A stretch of DNA of 64,000 bases, taken from Paracoccus zeaxanthinifaciens ATCC 21588 (GTDB taxonomy: Bacteria; Pseudomonadota; Alphaproteobacteria; Rhodobacterales; Rhodobacteraceae). The stretch covers positions 1-64,000 of the forward strand of contig NZ_ATUJ01000002.1 in NCBI RefSeq assembly GCF_000420145.1, read 5' to 3'. Position numbers and translations under genes: made by a program. Positions within the stretch are counted from its first letter, which is position 1; each line of letters starts with the position of its first letter. Shown in pieces: positions 36,771-43,922 of the stretch. The notes beneath the pieces were generated by a model, which worked only from the letters and a program-made list of their open reading frames with translations, was not told where the DNA came from and did not search any database.

Positions 36771-37559
36771 ATGACCAACGGGAACGCTCCGATTATCCAG
36801 ATGACCGATATCGAGAAGCATTTCGGCAGCGTGATCGCGCTGGCCGGCGTCTCGGTCGACATCTTTCCCGGCGAATGCCATTGCCTTCTGGGCGATAACG
36901 GCGCGGGCAAATCGACCTTCATCAAGACCATGTCGGGGGTCCACAAGCCGACCCACGGCCAGATCCTGTTCGAAGGCCGCCCGATGCATTTCAACGATCC
37001 GCGCGACGCCATCGCCGCGGGGATCGCCACCGTCCACCAGCATCTGGCGATGATCCCGCTGATGTCGGTCAGCCGCAACTTCTTCATGGGCAACGAGCCC
37101 GAGAAGAAGGTCGGCCCGTTCAGGTTCTTCGACCACGATTACGCCAACCGCGTGACGATGGAGGAGATGCGCAAGATGGGCATCAACCTGCGCAGCCCCG
37201 ATCAGGCGGTGGGCACCCTGTCGGGCGGCGAGCGTCAGACCGTCGCCATCGCGCGCGCCGTCCATTTCGGCGCGAAGGTGCTGATCCTGGACGAGCCGAC
37301 AAGCGCGCTTGGCGTACGCCAGACGGCGAATGTGCTGGCGACCATCGACAAGGTGCGCAAGCAGGGCATCGCGGTCGTGTTCATCACCCACAACGTGCGC
37401 CACGCGATGGCGGTGGGCGACCGCTTCACGGTGCTGAACCGGGGCCAGACGCTTGGCACCGCGCAGCGCGGGCAAATCACCCCCGAGGAACTGCAGGACA
37501 TGATGGCGGGCGGCCAGGAACTCGCCGCGCTCGAGGGAAGCCTGGGCGGGACCGTCTGA
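36771..37559 (+). CDS. Sugar ABC transporter ATP-binding protein
   Basis: 262 residues, a single nucleotide-binding domain: Walker [10 protein letters not shown] (41-49), Q-loop near VHQHL (88), signature LSGGERQ (near 149), Walker B VLILDEPT (near 173) and the H-loop in VFITHN (near 206). In contrast to RbsA-type proteins it has one domain only, as in FrcA-type systems, so the complex presumably uses it as a homodimer. Third gene of the importer operon. Confidence 0.93.
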
Positions 37560-37580: not shown

Positions 37581-37612
37581 ACGCGGCCCCGGCAGCGATG
37601 CCGGGGCCGCGT
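37581..37612. terminator. Strong bidirectional hairpin between the ABC operon and cydX
   Basis: Perfect 13-base inverted repeat (37581-37593 and 37600-37612) around a six-base loop, placed between the convergent stops of the ATPase gene and cydX. It should end transcription from both sides. Confidence 0.85.
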
Positions 37613-37618
37613 CGCATC

Positions 37619-37756
37619 TCAGTCACGGACCGCGGGCGGGCGGTCGTCATGTTCGTCGGCCAGCACGCGGTCGCGCTGCATTTCCAGCCACATCGCGTTC
37701 ATCACCGCGAAGATCGCGGCCAGCGGCAGCCCCAGAAGCCAGGCGAAATACCACAT
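37619..37756 (-). CDS. cydX: Cytochrome bd oxidase small subunit CydX
   Basis: 45-residue protein with one transmembrane helix: MWYFAWLLGLPLAAIFAVMN at the N-terminus is the conserved CydX core (MWYFAWxLG), followed by a charged cytoplasmic tail. CydX stabilises the haem cofactors and the CydA-CydB interface. It lies 18 bases downstream of cydB on the same strand, with AAGGGAAAG before the start. It is short enough to be missed by gene finders. Confidence 0.95.
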   Translation of the reverse strand: MWYFAWLLGLPLAAIFAVMNAMWLEMQRDRVLADEHDDRPPAVRD

Positions 37757-37774: not shown

Positions 37775-38938
37775 TCAGTACAGGCTGTCGGAATTGGCGG
37801 TCACGTCGGCCTCGCCGACCTTGCCCCACAGCACGCGATAGACCCAGGCCGTATAGGCCAGGATGATCGGCATGAAGATCACCGTCGCGACCAGCATGAT
37901 GAACAGCGTCAGATGCGAGGACGAGCTGTCCCAGACCGTCAGCGACGAACGCGGATGCAGCGACGACGGCAGGATGAACGGGAACATCGTCAGCCCCACG
38001 CTTGCAATGGCCCCGAAAATTCCCAGCTTGGACCAGACAAGGGTCGAGACCTCGCGGCCCGCGCGCAGGCCCGCCACGGCCAGCGACATGCCCGCCAGCG
38101 CCATCACCGGCGCCACCACGATCCAGGGCCGCGCGACATAGGCCGCAAGCCAGCTGTCCGTCCGCGCGACCTCGGAGTAGAGCGGGTTCGACGGCCCGTC
38201 GGTCACCACCTCGCCGATGATGCCGTAACCCTCGATCCCGAAGGCCAGCCACAGCCCCGCCAGGACATAGCCCGCTATGGTCACGACGCCCGTCACACCG
38301 CCGATGCGGCGGGCGCGATCGGCGACCACGCCCTCGGCCTTGAGCGACAGCCACGCCGCCCCATGCGTCACCAGCATCGCCAGCGACACCACGCCGGTCA
38401 GCAGCGCGAAGGGGTTCAGCAGCCCCAGGAACTTGCCGAAATAGCTGCCCTCGTAGCGCGAGAACAAATCGGGCGTCAGCTCGAACGGGACGCCCTGCAG
38501 CACGTTGCCGACCGCGACCCCGAAGACCAGCGCCGGCACGGCGCCCCCCGCGAACAGCGCCCAGTCCCAGCCGTTCCGCCAGGCGGGCGACGGCCGCTTG
38601 GAGCGGTACTTGAACGCGACGGGCCGCAGGATCAGCGCGCAGAGGACCGCGAACATCGCAAGGTAGAACCCCGAGAAGCTGACCGCATAGAGCGGCGGCC
38701 AGGCCGCGAAGATCGCGCCGCCGCCCAGGATGAACCAGACCTGGTTCCCCTCCGATACGGGGCCGACGGTATTGATGGCGATGCGCCGTTCGGTGTCGGT
38801 GCGCCCGACGAAGGGCAGCAGCGCGCCGACCCCCATGTCGAAGCCGTCCGTCAGCGCGAAGCCGATCAGCAGGACCCCCAGCAGAAGCCACCAGGTCACG
38901 CGCAGCACGTCATAGGATATCAGTTCGTGAAGGATCAT
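37775..38938 (-). CDS. cydB: Cytochrome bd ubiquinol oxidase subunit II (CydB)
   Basis: 387-residue membrane protein with about nine helices, the structural partner of Cyd[16 protein letters not shown] near residue 29 and [27 protein letters not shown] near 54 (shown in part by its GNQVWF core) are typical of the family. The start at 38938, [13 protein letters not shown], gives the normal length and leaves five bases after the cydA stop. It is followed by cydX. Confidence 0.95.
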
Positions 38939-38943
38939 CTTGC

Positions 38944-40548
38944 TCACTCCGCAGGGGTCGGAACGGGGGCGGCACCGCCGCGCAGGCGCGTCTCGTGGCG
39001 GGCCTCCCAGGCTTCGGTCTCGTCGATGTCCTGGAAGGGGCCCTTGCGGATGTATTTCAGCATCAGGCCCATCTCGACGACGAAGAGGATGGTGTAGAAG
39101 GTGACGAAGCCCGCCAGCGTCAGCAGAAGGTCCTGCACGCTCAGGTGGCTGACGGACAGCGCGGTCGGCAGCACGCCGTCCACCGTCCAGGGTTGGCGAC
39201 CGTATTCGGCCACGAACCAGCCCAGCTCGGCCGCGATCCAGGGCGCGGGGATGATCGCCACCGCGACCCGCAGCGCCCACCGCGGATAGCTTTGCTGACG
39301 GAAGGACGACCGCCAGAAGAAATAGGCCATCACCCCGATGAACAGGAACCCGAGCGCGACCATGAAGCGGAAGGACCAGAACAGCGGCAGCACGCCCGGA
39401 ATGGTGTCGTTGGCGGTCATCGCGATCTGTTCGGGCGTCGCGTCGCGCGGGTCGTCCATGTAACGCAGCAGCAGGAAGGCGAAGCCCAGGTTGCCCGAGT
39501 GCCGTTCGAACGTGTCGCGGATCGCGGGCGGGGTCGCATCGCGCATCTCGCGGATCGACATCAGCGCGTCATAGGCGAGGATCCCGCTCTCGATCCGGTC
39601 CTCGGCCTCGGCCACCAGGTCGTTGATGCCCGGGATCTCGGTCCCCAGGGACCGGGTGCCGATCAGCCCCATGACGAAGGGGATCTCGACCGCGTAATGG
39701 GTCTCGCGCGCCTCGATGTCGGGGATGCCGAAGGCGGTGAAGGGCGCGGGGGCCTCGTGGGTCTCCCACATGCCCTCCATCGCGGCCAGCTTCATGCGCT
39801 GCGTGTGGCTGGCGGCATAGCCGCTCTCGTCGCCCAGCACGACCACGGACAGCGACGCCGCAAGCCCGAAGGACGCCGCGACCGTGATCGAGCGCCGCGC
39901 CAGCGCGGTGTGGCGGCCCTTCAGCAGGTACCACGCGGACACGCCCAGCACGAAGACGGATGCCGTGACGTAGCCCGCCGACACGGTATGCACGAACTTG
40001 GCCTGTGCCACCTCGTTGAAGAGGACGGCGAAGAAATCGTCCATCTCCATCCGCATGGTGTCGGGGTTGAAGGACGCGCCCACCGGGTTCTGCATCCAGC
40101 CGTTCGCGATCAGGATCCACAGCGCCGAGAAGTTCGACCCGATGGCCACCAGCCACGCGACCGCCAGATGGGCCACGCGGCTCAGCTTGTCCCAGCCGAA
40201 GAAGAACAGCCCCACGAAGGTCGCCTCGAGGAAGAAGGCCATCAGCCCCTCGATCGCCAGCGGCGCCCCGAAGATGTCCCCGACATAGTGGCTGTAATAG
40301 CTCCAGTTCATGCCGAACTGGAATTCCATGGTGATGCCCGTGGCCACGCCCAGGGCAAAGTTGATCCCGAACAGCGTTCCCCAGAATTTCGTCATCTGCC
40401 GCCAGATCGGGCGGCCCGTCATGACATAGACGGTCTCCATGATCGCGACCAGGATCGACAGACCCAGTGTCAGCGGCACGAAGAGGAAATGATACATCGC
40501 CGTCATCGCGAATTGCAGGCGTGACAGCTCGACCACGTCGAGTTCCAT
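38944..40548 (-). CDS. cydA: Cytochrome bd ubiquinol oxidase subunit I (CydA)
   Basis: 534 residues, the haem-bearing quinol oxidase subunit. His20 in [13 protein letters not shown] is the haem b595/d-side ligand, and a second His in [10 protein letters not shown] near 187 is a haem b558 ligand; FRFMVALGF near 390 supplies the Met. The quinol-binding Q-loop region lies about 250-370. The enzyme reduces oxygen with high affinity without pumping protons and is used under microaerobic, nitrosative or sulfide stress. cydDC precede it by 99 bases. Confidence 0.95.
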
Positions 40549-40611
40549 TGCGGCAGGCTCCTTCGATGCTGTGCCGCCGGGGCGGCGCGCATCTTCTAGC
40601 AGCCCTGCCGA

Positions 40612-40643
40612 CCGCGCGATTTGATCTGGCGCAAATCGCGCGG
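40612..40643. promoter_or_regulatory. FNR-like site inside a 32-base palindrome upstream of cydA
   Basis: TTGATCTGGCGCAA (40621-40634) has one perfect and one degenerate FNR/FnrL half-site. It sits at the centre of a larger perfect repeat with 12-base arms (40612-40623 and 40632-40643) and an 8-base spacer. It is 73-86 bases upstream of the cydA start and just past the cydC stop, so it could be an oxygen-responsive operator, a terminator/attenuator between cydC and cydA, or both. Confidence 0.5.
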
Positions 40644-40647
40644 CGTT

Positions 40648-42249
40648 TCAGCGGCTTCCGGGTTGCGACAGCGCGACGCAGGCATCGAAGACGGGATGGT
40701 CCTGCCCCCGGTGCATGGCCGTCAGGATCGCGGCATCGGGCAGGAAGGCGCGGATGTTCGACAGCACGGCATCCGCGGTGTCGGGGTCCAGCCCCTCGGT
40801 CGGTTCGTCCAGCAGCAGGATCTGCGGGCGGGGCAGCAGGCTGCGCGCAAGGGCCAGCCGCTTGGCCTGCCCGCCCGAGAGGCCCGCGCCCCCCTCGGCC
40901 AGCCGCGCATCCAGCCCCCCGCGTTCGCGGATGGCGGGCGTCAGGGCCACGACATCCAGCACGGCCCACAGGGCATCGTCGTCGAAATCCCCCGCAAGGG
41001 TCAGGTTCTCGCGGATGGTGCCGCCGATCAGGGCGCTGCGCTGAGGCAGCATCACGACGCGCGCGCGCAGCGATGCCTCGTTCCACTCGCAGGGCGGCCG
41101 CCCCGCAATGCGGATGCCGTCACCCGGCAGCATGGCCGCGACGGCCAGCAGAAGCGTGCTCTTGCCCGCGCCGCTCGGGCCGGTCAGCGCAAGGGCCTGC
41201 CCGGGCCCAAGCGTGAAGGCGATATCGGGGCGGGACACCGCCAGATCGGGCCGGTCGGGCAGTTCGGGGCGCGCGTCGGGGGCAGGTCGCCCCCGGTCGG
41301 GACCGATGCGGCGGGCAGCGCCCGCAAGGCGACCGATCTCGGCAAGGCCGCGCCGCAGGGGCAGCAGCGTTTCGGCCAGGGCCAGCGCCACGAACAGACC
41401 GATCGCCGCACGGGCGGGCCCCACGTTCTCGACCAGCGCCCCGCCCGCGACCAGCGCCCCCGCGACGGCCAGCGCCACAAGGGCCGACATGACCAGCCCT
41501 GCCCGACGCTCGACCCGGTCGAGGGTCGCGGCATCGCGGCGGGCCGCATCGTCGATCTCGGTCAGCGCAGTTTCGCGGGCCGGAAGGCGACCGGCAAGGA
41601 TCAGGGCCTCGCGGTCGCGGATCATGTCGATCATGCCGCGCCGCAACGCCTGCGCGCCACGCTCGGCCATGTCGGCGGGCCGCAGCGTGCGCCGCGCCAG
41701 CCAGGTCAGCACGATGACCGCACCCGGCAGCAGGACCGCCGCGACCGTCAGCGCCACCGACGGCCCGACCAGCCACCACAGCGCGGCCAGGGCCGCAAGC
41801 TGCGTGACCAGCCCCGCCGCGACGGGCAGGACCAGCCGCAGGATCAGCCCGTCCAGCGCATCCACATCCGCGATCATCCGCGTCAGGATCGTCTCTCCGC
41901 GCAGTCGGGCAAGGGCGCGGGCGTCAAGGCCCGCATGCCGCCGCAGGATCGCCACGCGCAGCGCCGCAAGCGCGTGCAGGATCGCGTCATGTGTCAGCAG
42001 CCGTTCGCCGTAACGCGCCGCCGTTCGGCCAAGCGCAAGGAACCGCACCCCCGCCGAGGGTCGGAAGACGTCGAAGGCGATGCCGATGCCCGCCAGCCCC
42101 GCCACGCCGGTCGCGGTGATGAACCACCCCGACAGCCCCAGCAGCGCGGCGCCCATCAGCAGGACGATCACCGACAGCGCAGCCCCGCGCATCATCGCGC
42201 CGGGGGCGGCGCCGATCAGCAGGCGGACAAGACGAAGCATCCGGGTCAT
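40648..42249 (-). CDS. cydC: Thiol reductant ABC exporter subunit CydC
   Basis: 533-residue half-transporter: six-helix ABC membrane domain (about 1-310) and a nucleotide-binding domain with Walker A GPSGAGKST (near 367), signature LSGGQAKRLALARSLL (near 460) and Walker B ILLLDEPTEGLD. With CydD it exports glutathione and cysteine or binds haem, a need for cytochrome bd assembly. The start at 42249 overlaps the cydD stop by four bases. Confidence 0.92.
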   Translation of the reverse strand: MTRMLRLVRLLIGAAPGAMMRGAALSVIVLLMGAALLGLSGWFITATGVAGLAGIGIAFDVFRPSAGVRFLALGRTAARYGERLLTHDAILHALAALRVAILRRHAGLDARALARLRGETILTRMIADVDALDGLILRLVLPVAAGLVTQLAALAALWWLVGPSVALTVAAVLLPGAVIVLTWLARRTLRPADMAERGAQALRRGMIDMIRDREALILAGRLPARETALTEIDDAARRDAATLDRVERRAGLVMSALVALAVAGALVAGGALVENVGPARAAIGLFVALALAETLLPLRRGLAEIGRLAGAARRIGPDRGRPAPDARPELPDRPDLAVSRPDIAFTLGPGQALALTGPSGAGKSTLLLAVAAMLPGDGIRIAGRPPCEWNEASLRARVVMLPQRSALIGGTIRENLTLAGDFDDDALWAVLDVVALTPAIRERGGLDARLAEGGAGLSGGQAKRLALARSLLPRPQILLLDEPTEGLDPDTADAVLSNIRAFLPDAAILTAMHRGQDHPVFDACVALSQPGSR

Positions 42250-43922
42250 CCCGACACCCTCGCGCGGGCGTCGGCTGCCGCGATCAGCGCGGGATCGTGG
42301 GTCGCGACCACCACCGCGCGGCCCGCCTGCGCGATGCGCCGCAGCGATGCGATGATGCGCGCGGCGGTCGCCCCGTCCAGGTCGGCGGTCGGCTCGTCGG
42401 CAAGGATCAGGTCGCCGCCCGCCATGACCGCCCGCGCCAGCATCAGCCGCCGCGCCTCGCCCCCTGATACGCCGCCGCCGCTTTCGCCCAGTCGGGTGTC
42501 CAGCCCCGCGGGCAGGCGTTCGACGATGCGGCAGGCATCGGCCATGCGCAAAGCGGGCCAAGGATCGGCCCCCGTGCCGCGCGGGTCCAGCCAGGCACGC
42601 AGCGGCAGGTCCGGGAAATGCGGGCGCTGCGGGACGAAGGCCAGCCGCGCGCGCCAGGCATCCGCCGTATCGGGCGTCAGATCGGTGCCGCAGACCGCGA
42701 TCCGCCCCGCATCCAGCGGCACGAGCCCCGCGATGGCCGCAAGCGTCGTGCTCTTGCCCGCGCCGCTTGGGCCGGTGACCGCGACGATCCCGCCGACCGC
42801 GACCTCCAGATCGGGCAGGCGGACGCGACGTCCGGGCAGCGCGGCCACGGCACCGGACAGCCGCAGCGCAAAGGCCCCCGGCAGCGGCACGGCATCCCGG
42901 CCATCGCCGATCATCGAGACACGCTCGGCCGCGTCCAGCGCCTCCAGCTCCTCGACGACGGCAAAGCCCGCGGCGCGGTCGTGCCAGGCCGCCGAAAGAT
43001 CGCGCAGGGGCTGGAAGAACTCGGGGGCGATCAGCAGCAGGAACAGCCCCTCGGCCAGGGTCAGGGGCGTGCCCCAGCTGCCGAAGCCGATCTCTCCCAG
43101 CAGGGTGAAGCCCACGAAGACCGCGACCATCGCCACCCCCAGGGCCGAGAACAGCTCGAGCACGGTAGAGGAGAGGAATGCGATCCGAAGCACCGCCATG
43201 GTCCGCTGGCGCAAACCCTCGGCGCGGTCGGCAAAGCCCGTCGCCGCGCGTTCGGTCGCGCCCAGAAGGCGGATGTCGGACAGCGCGGCCAGCTGGTCCA
43301 TCAGCATCTCGTTCATGGTGCCGATCTCGGACATCTGGCGGCGAGATGCCTGCTCGGCGGCCATTCCGACCAGCGCCATGAACAGCGGGATCAGCGGCCC
43401 CGCGACCAGCAGCGTCAGGCCCACGACCCATGACAGGCAGAAGGCAAGCACCAGAAGCACGGGCGGCAACACCGAGACCCGCGTCATCGCGACGTGATAG
43501 CGCGTGATCCAGGGCTGCAGCAGCGGCAGCTTCTGGACCGCCAGCGAGGCGATGGCGGCCGAGCCTGCGCCGGTGACTGCGCGGGCCTCGCGCCCGATCA
43601 GCGCGCGGCGTTCGCGGGCGACGGTCGCATCGGCGGCACGGAACAGAAGCGCACCGGCACGGTGATCCAGGGCCGCGCGCAGGATGCCCCCCGCCGCGAT
43701 GATCCCGGCGGCGGTCAGCGTCCGTGCCGCGTCGGCATCACCCCCGACCCAACCGGCAACGGCCCATGCGATCGCCGCCGCCTGCACCGGCCAGACCAGC
43801 CCCGCCGCGACCGACAGCATGCCCGCGCGCCGCAGCAGGCCATCGACCGGCGCGATGATCCGGTCCCGCGCCATCGCGCGCGGTGACCGCATTCCTGCCG
43901 CTTTGCGCATATCGTTCACCAT
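42246..43922 (-). CDS. cydD: Thiol reductant ABC exporter subunit CydD
   Basis: 558-residue half-transporter partner of CydC. Membrane domain about 25-310; nucleotide-binding domain with Walker A GPSGAGKST (near 375), signature GVSGGEARRLMLARAV (near 483) and Walker B ILADEPTADLD. The annotated start has AAGGGCGGCGA upstream; an internal ATG four codons on is also possible. First gene of cydDCABX, all in one direction. Confidence 0.92.
   Translation of the reverse strand: MVNDMRKAAGMRSPRAMARDRIIAPVDGLLRRAGMLSVAAGLVWPVQAAAIAWAVAGWVGGDADAARTLTAAGIIAAGGILRAALDHRAGALLFRAADATVARERRALIGREARAVTGAGSAAIASLAVQKLPLLQPWITRYHVAMTRVSVLPPVLLVLAFCLSWVVGLTLLVAGPLIPLFMALVGMAAEQASRRQMSEIGTMNEMLMDQLAALSDIRLLGATERAATGFADRAEGLRQRTMAVLRIAFLSSTVLELFSALGVAMVAVFVGFTLLGEIGFGSWGTPLTLAEGLFLLLIAPEFFQPLRDLSAAWHDRAAGFAVVEELEALDAAERVSMIGDGRDAVPLPGAFALRLSGAVAALPGRRVRLPDLEVAVGGIVAVTGPSGAGKSTTLAAIAGLVPLDAGRIAVCGTDLTPDTADAWRARLAFVPQRPHFPDLPLRAWLDPRGTGADPWPALRMADACRIVERLPAGLDTRLGESGGGVSGGEARRLMLARAVMAGGDLILADEPTADLDGATAARIIASLRRIAQAGRAVVVATHDPALIAAADARARVSG

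Follow-up and report, generated by a model that had tools for sequence, protein, structure and literature searches.

The window, a stretch of 64,000 nucleotides from Paracoccus zeaxanthinifaciens ATCC 21588, carries a cydDC-cydABX gene cluster on its minus strand. Subunit I of the cytochrome bd oxidase, a respiratory enzyme of low-oxygen conditions, is encoded by cydA (38944-40548; Pfam PF01654, E 1.6e-176) and subunit II by cydB (37775-38938; PF02322, E 4.6e-102), for which the ATG at 38938 was taken as the likely start. The small gene cydX (37619-37756, 45 aa) was recognized from its translation and from a match to TIGR02106 above the cut-off, and the charged tail of its product extends past the 30-residue family model. 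On the other side of cydA, the two best NCBIfam matches of cydC (40648-42330, start provisional, stop codon at 40648-40650) are both CydC models, each scoring below its cut-off, while cydD (42246-43922) has the CydD model TIGR02857 as its best match at 417.9 bits against a cut-off of 435. A likely ribosome-binding site for cydA, GAAGGAG, is located on the same strand at 40558-40564 and is kept in the sister genome, G152. Directly after cydX, a hairpin with 14-bp arms and a 4-nt loop (37581-37612; -37 kcal/mol, z -5.95) marks the probable 3' end of cydABX, and an open frame on the opposite strand ends close to this hairpin at 37559.

The spacer between the cydC stop and the cydA start measures 99 nt and contains a perfect inverted repeat (40612-40643), with 12-base arms (40612-40623 and 40632-40643, 100% complementary) around an 8-base centre. 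Nested within the repeat is an FNR/FnrL-type box on the minus strand, TTGCG-CCAG-ATCAA (40621-40634). This 14-mer and the larger repeat share a centre at 40627.5, which is 20 nt past the cydC stop codon and 79.5 nt upstream of the cydA ATG. Both the perfect palindrome between cydC and cydA and the common centre had been put forward in a sequence-only reading of this DNA, and both hold. The outer portions of the two arms (40612-40620 and 40635-40643) fall outside the core of the box and form nine contiguous co-centred pairs with one another.

Read on the coding (minus) strand, the sequence of the box is TTGCGCCAGATCAA. A class II operator of the FNR/FnrL type consists of the half-sites TTGAT and ATCAA separated by a 4-base spacer; here the half nearer the promoter, ATCAA, matches exactly, and the distal half, TTGCG, departs from TTGAT at two positions (2 of the 10 consensus positions). 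The same pair of half-sites with the same spacer length occurs at Rhodobacter sphaeroides hemN as TTGCGcaggATCAA, which falls in a region listed as bound in vivo in the FnrL ChIP-chip table, and the gene is activated by FnrL (PMC2908626). The hemN region differs in that it belongs to another gene and in that the sequence is labelled putative there, with a motif score of 262 compared to at least 1613.5 for close matches (PMC2908626). A sequence one base off the window's box, ATGCGCCAGATCAA, is given in Table 1 of the R. capsulatus FnrL study, where the site is in a coding region with an enrichment of 4 and slight repression (PMC4634722). As precedents for FnrL, these two printed examples of the TTGCG half are weak. 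Sites of the TTGCGC type are also on record for a rhizobial CRP/FNR regulator (PMC6710368). Within the genome, the pattern fitted by the window's box (TTGATN5GCAA) occurs 6 times compared to 3 for the reversed control, and exact TTGAY-N4-RTCAA boxes occur at four places, as many as the reversed control, such that motif counts alone show nothing.

The position of the box was compared across the cydA upstream regions of related genomes. From GTDB species, the cydA loci of the best 80 of 591 matches were taken and 79 of them were counted, with L167 dropped for having almost no upstream sequence, and a box within one mismatch of TTGAT-N4-ATCAA is present in 49 of these 79 compared to 0.55 expected. 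A larger set, which combines GTDB, genus, and family genomes and consists of the best CydA matches listed and not of a random sample, provided 126 distinct upstreams with a clear start; 13 of its 139 rows were set aside because they had no clear start, had less than the full 220 nt, or were duplicates. Loci L014-L018, some with unclear starts, were left out of the counts, and two of them (L014 and L015) carry FNR boxes with 0 and 1 mismatch, respectively. Among the matches listed, a TTG...CAA box with at most one mismatch is located 75-140 nt before cydA in 58 of the 126 upstreams (0.13 in shuffles), and allowing two mismatches increases this to 66, the window included (0.6 in shuffles). An equal-size stretch further upstream held a single box. 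The distance from box to cydA start in the 58 upstreams has a median of 92.5 nt and quartiles of 88.5-94.5. The placement of an FNR class II operator is thus conserved among these upstreams (66/126 vs 0.6), and 29 of the 35 rows in the window's own CydA clade are without a box. In other alphaproteobacteria with an FNR box before cydA (Gemmobacter, Marivita, Mameliella, and Rhizobium, among others), cydC precedes cydA in most cases, the distance to the start is similar, and the -10 signal is shared with the window. Their boxes differ from that of the window in having mostly 0-1 mismatch and in being without the long co-centred dyad.

FNR class II promoters have a -10 element approximately 29.5 bp from the centre of the box, with that centre approximately 41.5 bp upstream of the transcript start. 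A candidate -10 element in the window, TAGAAG (40593-40598, minus strand), agrees with TATAAT at 4 of 6 positions, and its first base is 29.5 bp from the box centre, as class II spacing predicts; the corresponding TAGGAC of G152 also begins at 29.5. When 67 upstreams are aligned on the box centre, A is over-represented at +30.5 (67%) and +32.5 (54%), and +30.5 would be the second base of a -10 element at the 29.5 spacing. Taken one by one, the best -10 hexamers scatter, with 38 of the 67 beginning at 27.5-31.5 (ties broken towards 29) and 17 at 37.5-39.5, and a consensus scan of the region for a sigma-70 promoter returned none. From the class II spacing, transcription would be expected to start near 40586.

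The regulator that would recognize such an operator is encoded in the genome, as contig C6 carries an FnrL gene identified by the NF045989 equivalog model (386 bits, cut-off 300). There are 22 CRP-type HTH matches in the genome; family names were assigned to the top three, among which is FnrL. One of the exact FNR boxes stands before hemA (5-aminolevulinate synthase), two form a tandem pair upstream of a universal-stress-like gene, on the same contig as fnrL (a tentative gene name, helped by a match far below cut-off), and one adjoins a gene tentatively labelled as flavin-dependent monooxygenase-like.

The computed evidence, comprising the sequence of the box, its conserved placement, the conserved -10 spacing, the presence of an FnrL gene, and the FNR boxes before hemA and the stress-protein-like gene, indicates that 40621-40634 is probably a class II FnrL operator for cydABX. 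FnrL binding, activation as the sign of the effect, and the position of the transcript start are predictions from this pattern. In the proposed mechanism, FnrL, the oxygen-labile regulator of the CRP/FNR family, would give cydABX a separate promoter within the cydDC-cydABX cluster. With falling oxygen, an FnrL dimer would form on TTGCG-N4-ATCAA, centred near -41.5, and activate transcription from the -10 element at 40593-40598, with the start near 40586, by which cydABX could be set apart from the cydDC transcript. The outer 9-bp dyad is a lineage-specific addition, likely with at most a secondary role in read-through cydDC RNA, whose 3' end it could form or which it could stabilise. Through such an operator, FnrL would make the bd-type quinol oxidase of the bacterium responsive to oxygen, and the proposal offers a promoter model that can be tested.

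Published observations on the control of cyd genes come from R. capsulatus and R. sphaeroides. The R. capsulatus cydAB genes are absent from Table 1 of direct FnrL targets (PMC4634722) and are reported to change little between aerobic and photosynthetic growth (PMC5643017), and their expression depends on RegA, described as a strong regulator, with RegA binding before cydA reported (PMC5359404). No word beginning with 'cyd' appears in the main text of the FnrL regulon paper on R. sphaeroides (PMC2908626), and FnrL effects on the quinol oxidases of this organism are described as indirect (PMC4263372). The literature search found no paper joining Dinoroseobacter shibae, FnrL, and cyd, and no paper joining cydA with at least three of FNR, inverted repeat, transcription terminator, and hairpin. 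Because of these published data and the 29 of 35 clade rows without a box, FnrL control of cydABX has to be shown in this lineage and not assumed.

The longer dyad around the box is real and, in its perfect form, lineage-specific. As a bare hairpin it is unremarkable and not very rare, since the 64 kb contain 2 hairpins with arms of at least 12 bases and loops of 3-12 nt compared to 0.3 expected (30 first-order Markov shuffles). It is the combination of a box with co-centred outer pairs that is rare. Three TTG-N8-CAA sites occur in the window, and only the site within 40612-40643 has outer co-centred pairs (9), with none at the other two. Shuffling its own flanks reaches at least 9 co-centred outer pairs with P = 2e-5, or P = 7.5e-5 when an arm offset of up to 3 bases is allowed. 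Each of the 66 other box-anchored promoters has 0-3 co-centred pairs outside the core, compared to 9 in the window, on which ground a generally conserved long dyad was rejected; with offsets allowed, the longest outer pairings among them are 6 in G152, 5 in L211 and L139, and 4 in L149 and L107. The four other exact FNR boxes of the genome have 0 outer pairs. That the dyad is a dispersed repeat was likewise rejected, as its inner 28 bases recur nowhere in the 3.05-Mb genome with up to 3 arm mismatches allowed. In a search for plasmid relatives, 423 records matched and none covered 80% of the query.

The closest comparison is provided by G152, which is the sister of the window (support 99) in a CydA tree of 138 rows that carries SH-aLRT support only and leaves out L185; the two are joined by an Antarctobacter-type pair (96). 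The cydC-cydA spacer of G152 (L064/L173) contains the arms GTGCGATT-N11-AATCGCAC around a canonical FNR box, TTGATCCAGGTCAA, at 81.5 nt before the start. The two spacers share an FNR box, paired outer arms, the sequence CTGCTAG, and the ribosome-binding site, and G152 differs in its canonical box, in outer arms shifted by one base, and in one compensated pair. Specifically, one C-G pair of the window is T-A in G152, and one of the two sides is shorter by a T, a shift that keeps an RNA stem with a bulge but alters the spacing of the DNA dyad. When its own flanks are shuffled, the outer arms of G152 have P 0.005. Among the 66 other promoters, 0.21 rows with at least 6 outer pairs are expected and G152 is the only one found, so that G152 alone is no strong signal, and a single compensatory pair between two genomes is no more than suggestive. 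As the outer arms of the window are unlikely to be random and the sister keeps its pairing through a compensatory change, a second role, in RNA or in DNA, is possible.

Three explanations of the outer arms can be weighed next to the FnrL operator. The one that fares best, plausible while falling a little short of probable, is that the outer dyad is a neutral by-product, such as a quasi-palindrome perfected by template switching, and that the FNR box is the only functional part; this is fully compatible with the operator. Fewer than 6 contiguous outer pairs are present in 65 of the 66 other box-anchored promoters even with offsets allowed, which together with the bare flanks of the genome's four other exact boxes and the 0.21 rows expected to reach at least 6 pairs is consistent with neutrality. 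What a neutral origin accommodates less easily is that the sole row reaching 6 pairs is the sister, and that it does so with a compensatory change.

The second explanation concerns the RNA. On the coding strand, the repeat and its flanks fold with -26.5 kcal/mol for 52 nt (z -2.76, but -1.33 with Markov shuffles) into a stem that begins 4 nt past the cydC stop, and the hairpin after cydX (37581-37612) is much stronger (-37 vs -26.5 kcal/mol). A GC-rich stem directly after a stop codon, as formed by 40612-40643, is also a feature of intrinsic (Rho-independent) terminators. These terminators have a U-run after the stem, which the repeat is without, and a scan of 40400-40800 found 0 terminator-like sites on either strand, for which reasons an intrinsic terminator by consensus was rejected. 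A known RNA family was rejected as well, with no Rfam match at E up to 1. Folds were compared for the 53 loci, the window included, whose cydC-cydA spacer could be measured and holds a box-like site (30 rows without a measurable spacer were left out). For 32 nt centred on the box, the window folds with -19.7 kcal/mol, followed by G152 (-12.0), L139 (-11.3), L112 (-10.8), and L114 (-10.6), and the median of the 53 loci is -4.2 kcal/mol. For 52 nt, z is below -2 in L107, L112, and L145, compared to -1.33 in the window. The G152 fold has z -1.78. Refolding with more flank produced bulged stems in L139 (-12.6 kcal/mol, z -1.84) and L114 (-10.6 kcal/mol, z -4.85). Stems over the box therefore also exist outside the window, in L139, L112, and L114, whereas the perfect co-centred dyad is confined to it. 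Covariation in the RNA amounts to the one compensatory pair in two genomes only, with weak folds in most other relatives.

A dual element, in which the FnrL operator would double as a hairpin that ends, pauses, or stabilises cydDC readthrough RNA, can draw on several of these results and is also compatible with the operator. The 12-bp stem with its -26.5 kcal/mol fold is positioned 4 nt after the cydC stop, the nine outer pairs are beyond chance, the C-G to T-A change and one-base shift of the G152 arms would be tolerated by a bulged RNA stem, and bulged stems form over the box in a few relatives, such as L114 and L139. The missing U-tract and terminator call, the missing Rfam match, the weak box-centred folds of most box-bearing relatives (the median of -4.2 kcal/mol), the modest z of the window beside those of L107, L112, and L145, the values for G152 (fold z -1.78, outer arms P 0.005), and the weakness of a single compensatory pair in two genomes speak against it, and such a dual function appears unlikely. 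The sequence-only reading had proposed that one element might act both as an oxygen-responsive operator for cydABX and as a hairpin limiting readthrough from cydDC. The operator half of that proposal is strengthened by the conserved position, the class II -10 spacing, the FnrL gene, and the TTGCG half in print; the hairpin half is possible but unsupported by a U-tract, and the stem is not generally conserved. Should the outer dyad prove functional, it would offer a compact example in which one and the same sequence is an operator in DNA and a boundary in RNA.

The last explanation draws on a different motif found in the spacers of close relatives. In the 35-row CydA clade around the window, which has moderate support (88), 20 rows carry a GGTGAY-N3-GTCACC dyad, 9 carry neither motif, and 6 carry an FNR box, where the FNR label on the tree is not limited by position and L010, with a box at 32.5 nt, is counted as FNR. 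The dyad follows the cydC stop at approximately 90-155 nt before cydA in L093, L094, L097, L099, L100, L104, L105, L122, L137, and others. Among the matches listed, it occurs in 21 of 139 rows under a lax rule and in 15 of 126 under a strict rule, and none of the 126 upstreams has both this dyad and an FNR box. Because Y, when it is T, pairs with G as G-U in RNA, the GGTGAY dyad could be an operator or a hairpin. The sequence TGGTGAYNNWGTCACC is absent from the window's genome and is present in 7 of 9 genomes searched (chosen mostly for the motif), in 6 of them beside cydA, with 0 for the reversed control.

That the outer arms serve a second protein, such as another CRP/FNR-family regulator or one of RegA type, as an operator that overlaps the FnrL site is improbable: the spacer does host other operator-like dyads, given GGTGAY-N3-GTCACC in many of the nearest cyd relatives, and in R. 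capsulatus RegA reportedly binds upstream of cydA (PMC5359404), but the arm spacing differs by one base between the window and G152 and the inner 28 bases have no second copy in the genome at up to 3 mismatches.

With the FnrL operator retained as the preferred reading of the box itself, the simplest reading of the clade is that an FNR box replaced the GGTGAY operator in the window's lineage. The wiring of cydABX seems to change between close relatives while the genes stay, which bears on the turnover of regulatory sites. A more elaborate version would have the lineage of the window and G152 swap the GGTGAY operator, common in this clade, for an FnrL box embedded in a hairpin of the RNA where cydC ends, with one 32-bp sequence serving as oxygen-sensing operator and transcript boundary and with its pairing kept by selection; this version is improbable.

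Several further observations were made on the motifs of these spacers. In G168 (L234, 4705 and 8292), the GGTGAY dyad precedes the cydD match by approximately 300 bp and has another copy upstream of cydA, and in G015 (L229, 1501) it also precedes a gene next to cydA that is tentatively labelled membrane-transporter-like; these copies may perhaps represent a small local regulon. In G546, the cydB region downstream of cydA also contains a looser form of the GGTGAY dyad (L233, 10868). Candidate regulators of the dyad are ideas only, either a CRP/FNR-type protein, with such a gene near one copy (L223), or a protein that binds a RegA-type site. In L175-L180, at approximately 80-105 nt before cydA, several genomes of the window's genus have in common a GTCGCAGCGACAG-like palindrome, which is perhaps a RegA-type site, and these loci have no cydC within the 1.5 kb fetched upstream of cydA. 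Finally, a second small GC stem, GCCGCCCCGGCGGC, is located in the window at 40573-40592, between the predicted transcript start and the cydA ribosome-binding site, and G152 has GCCGCCAATTGCGGC in the same place.
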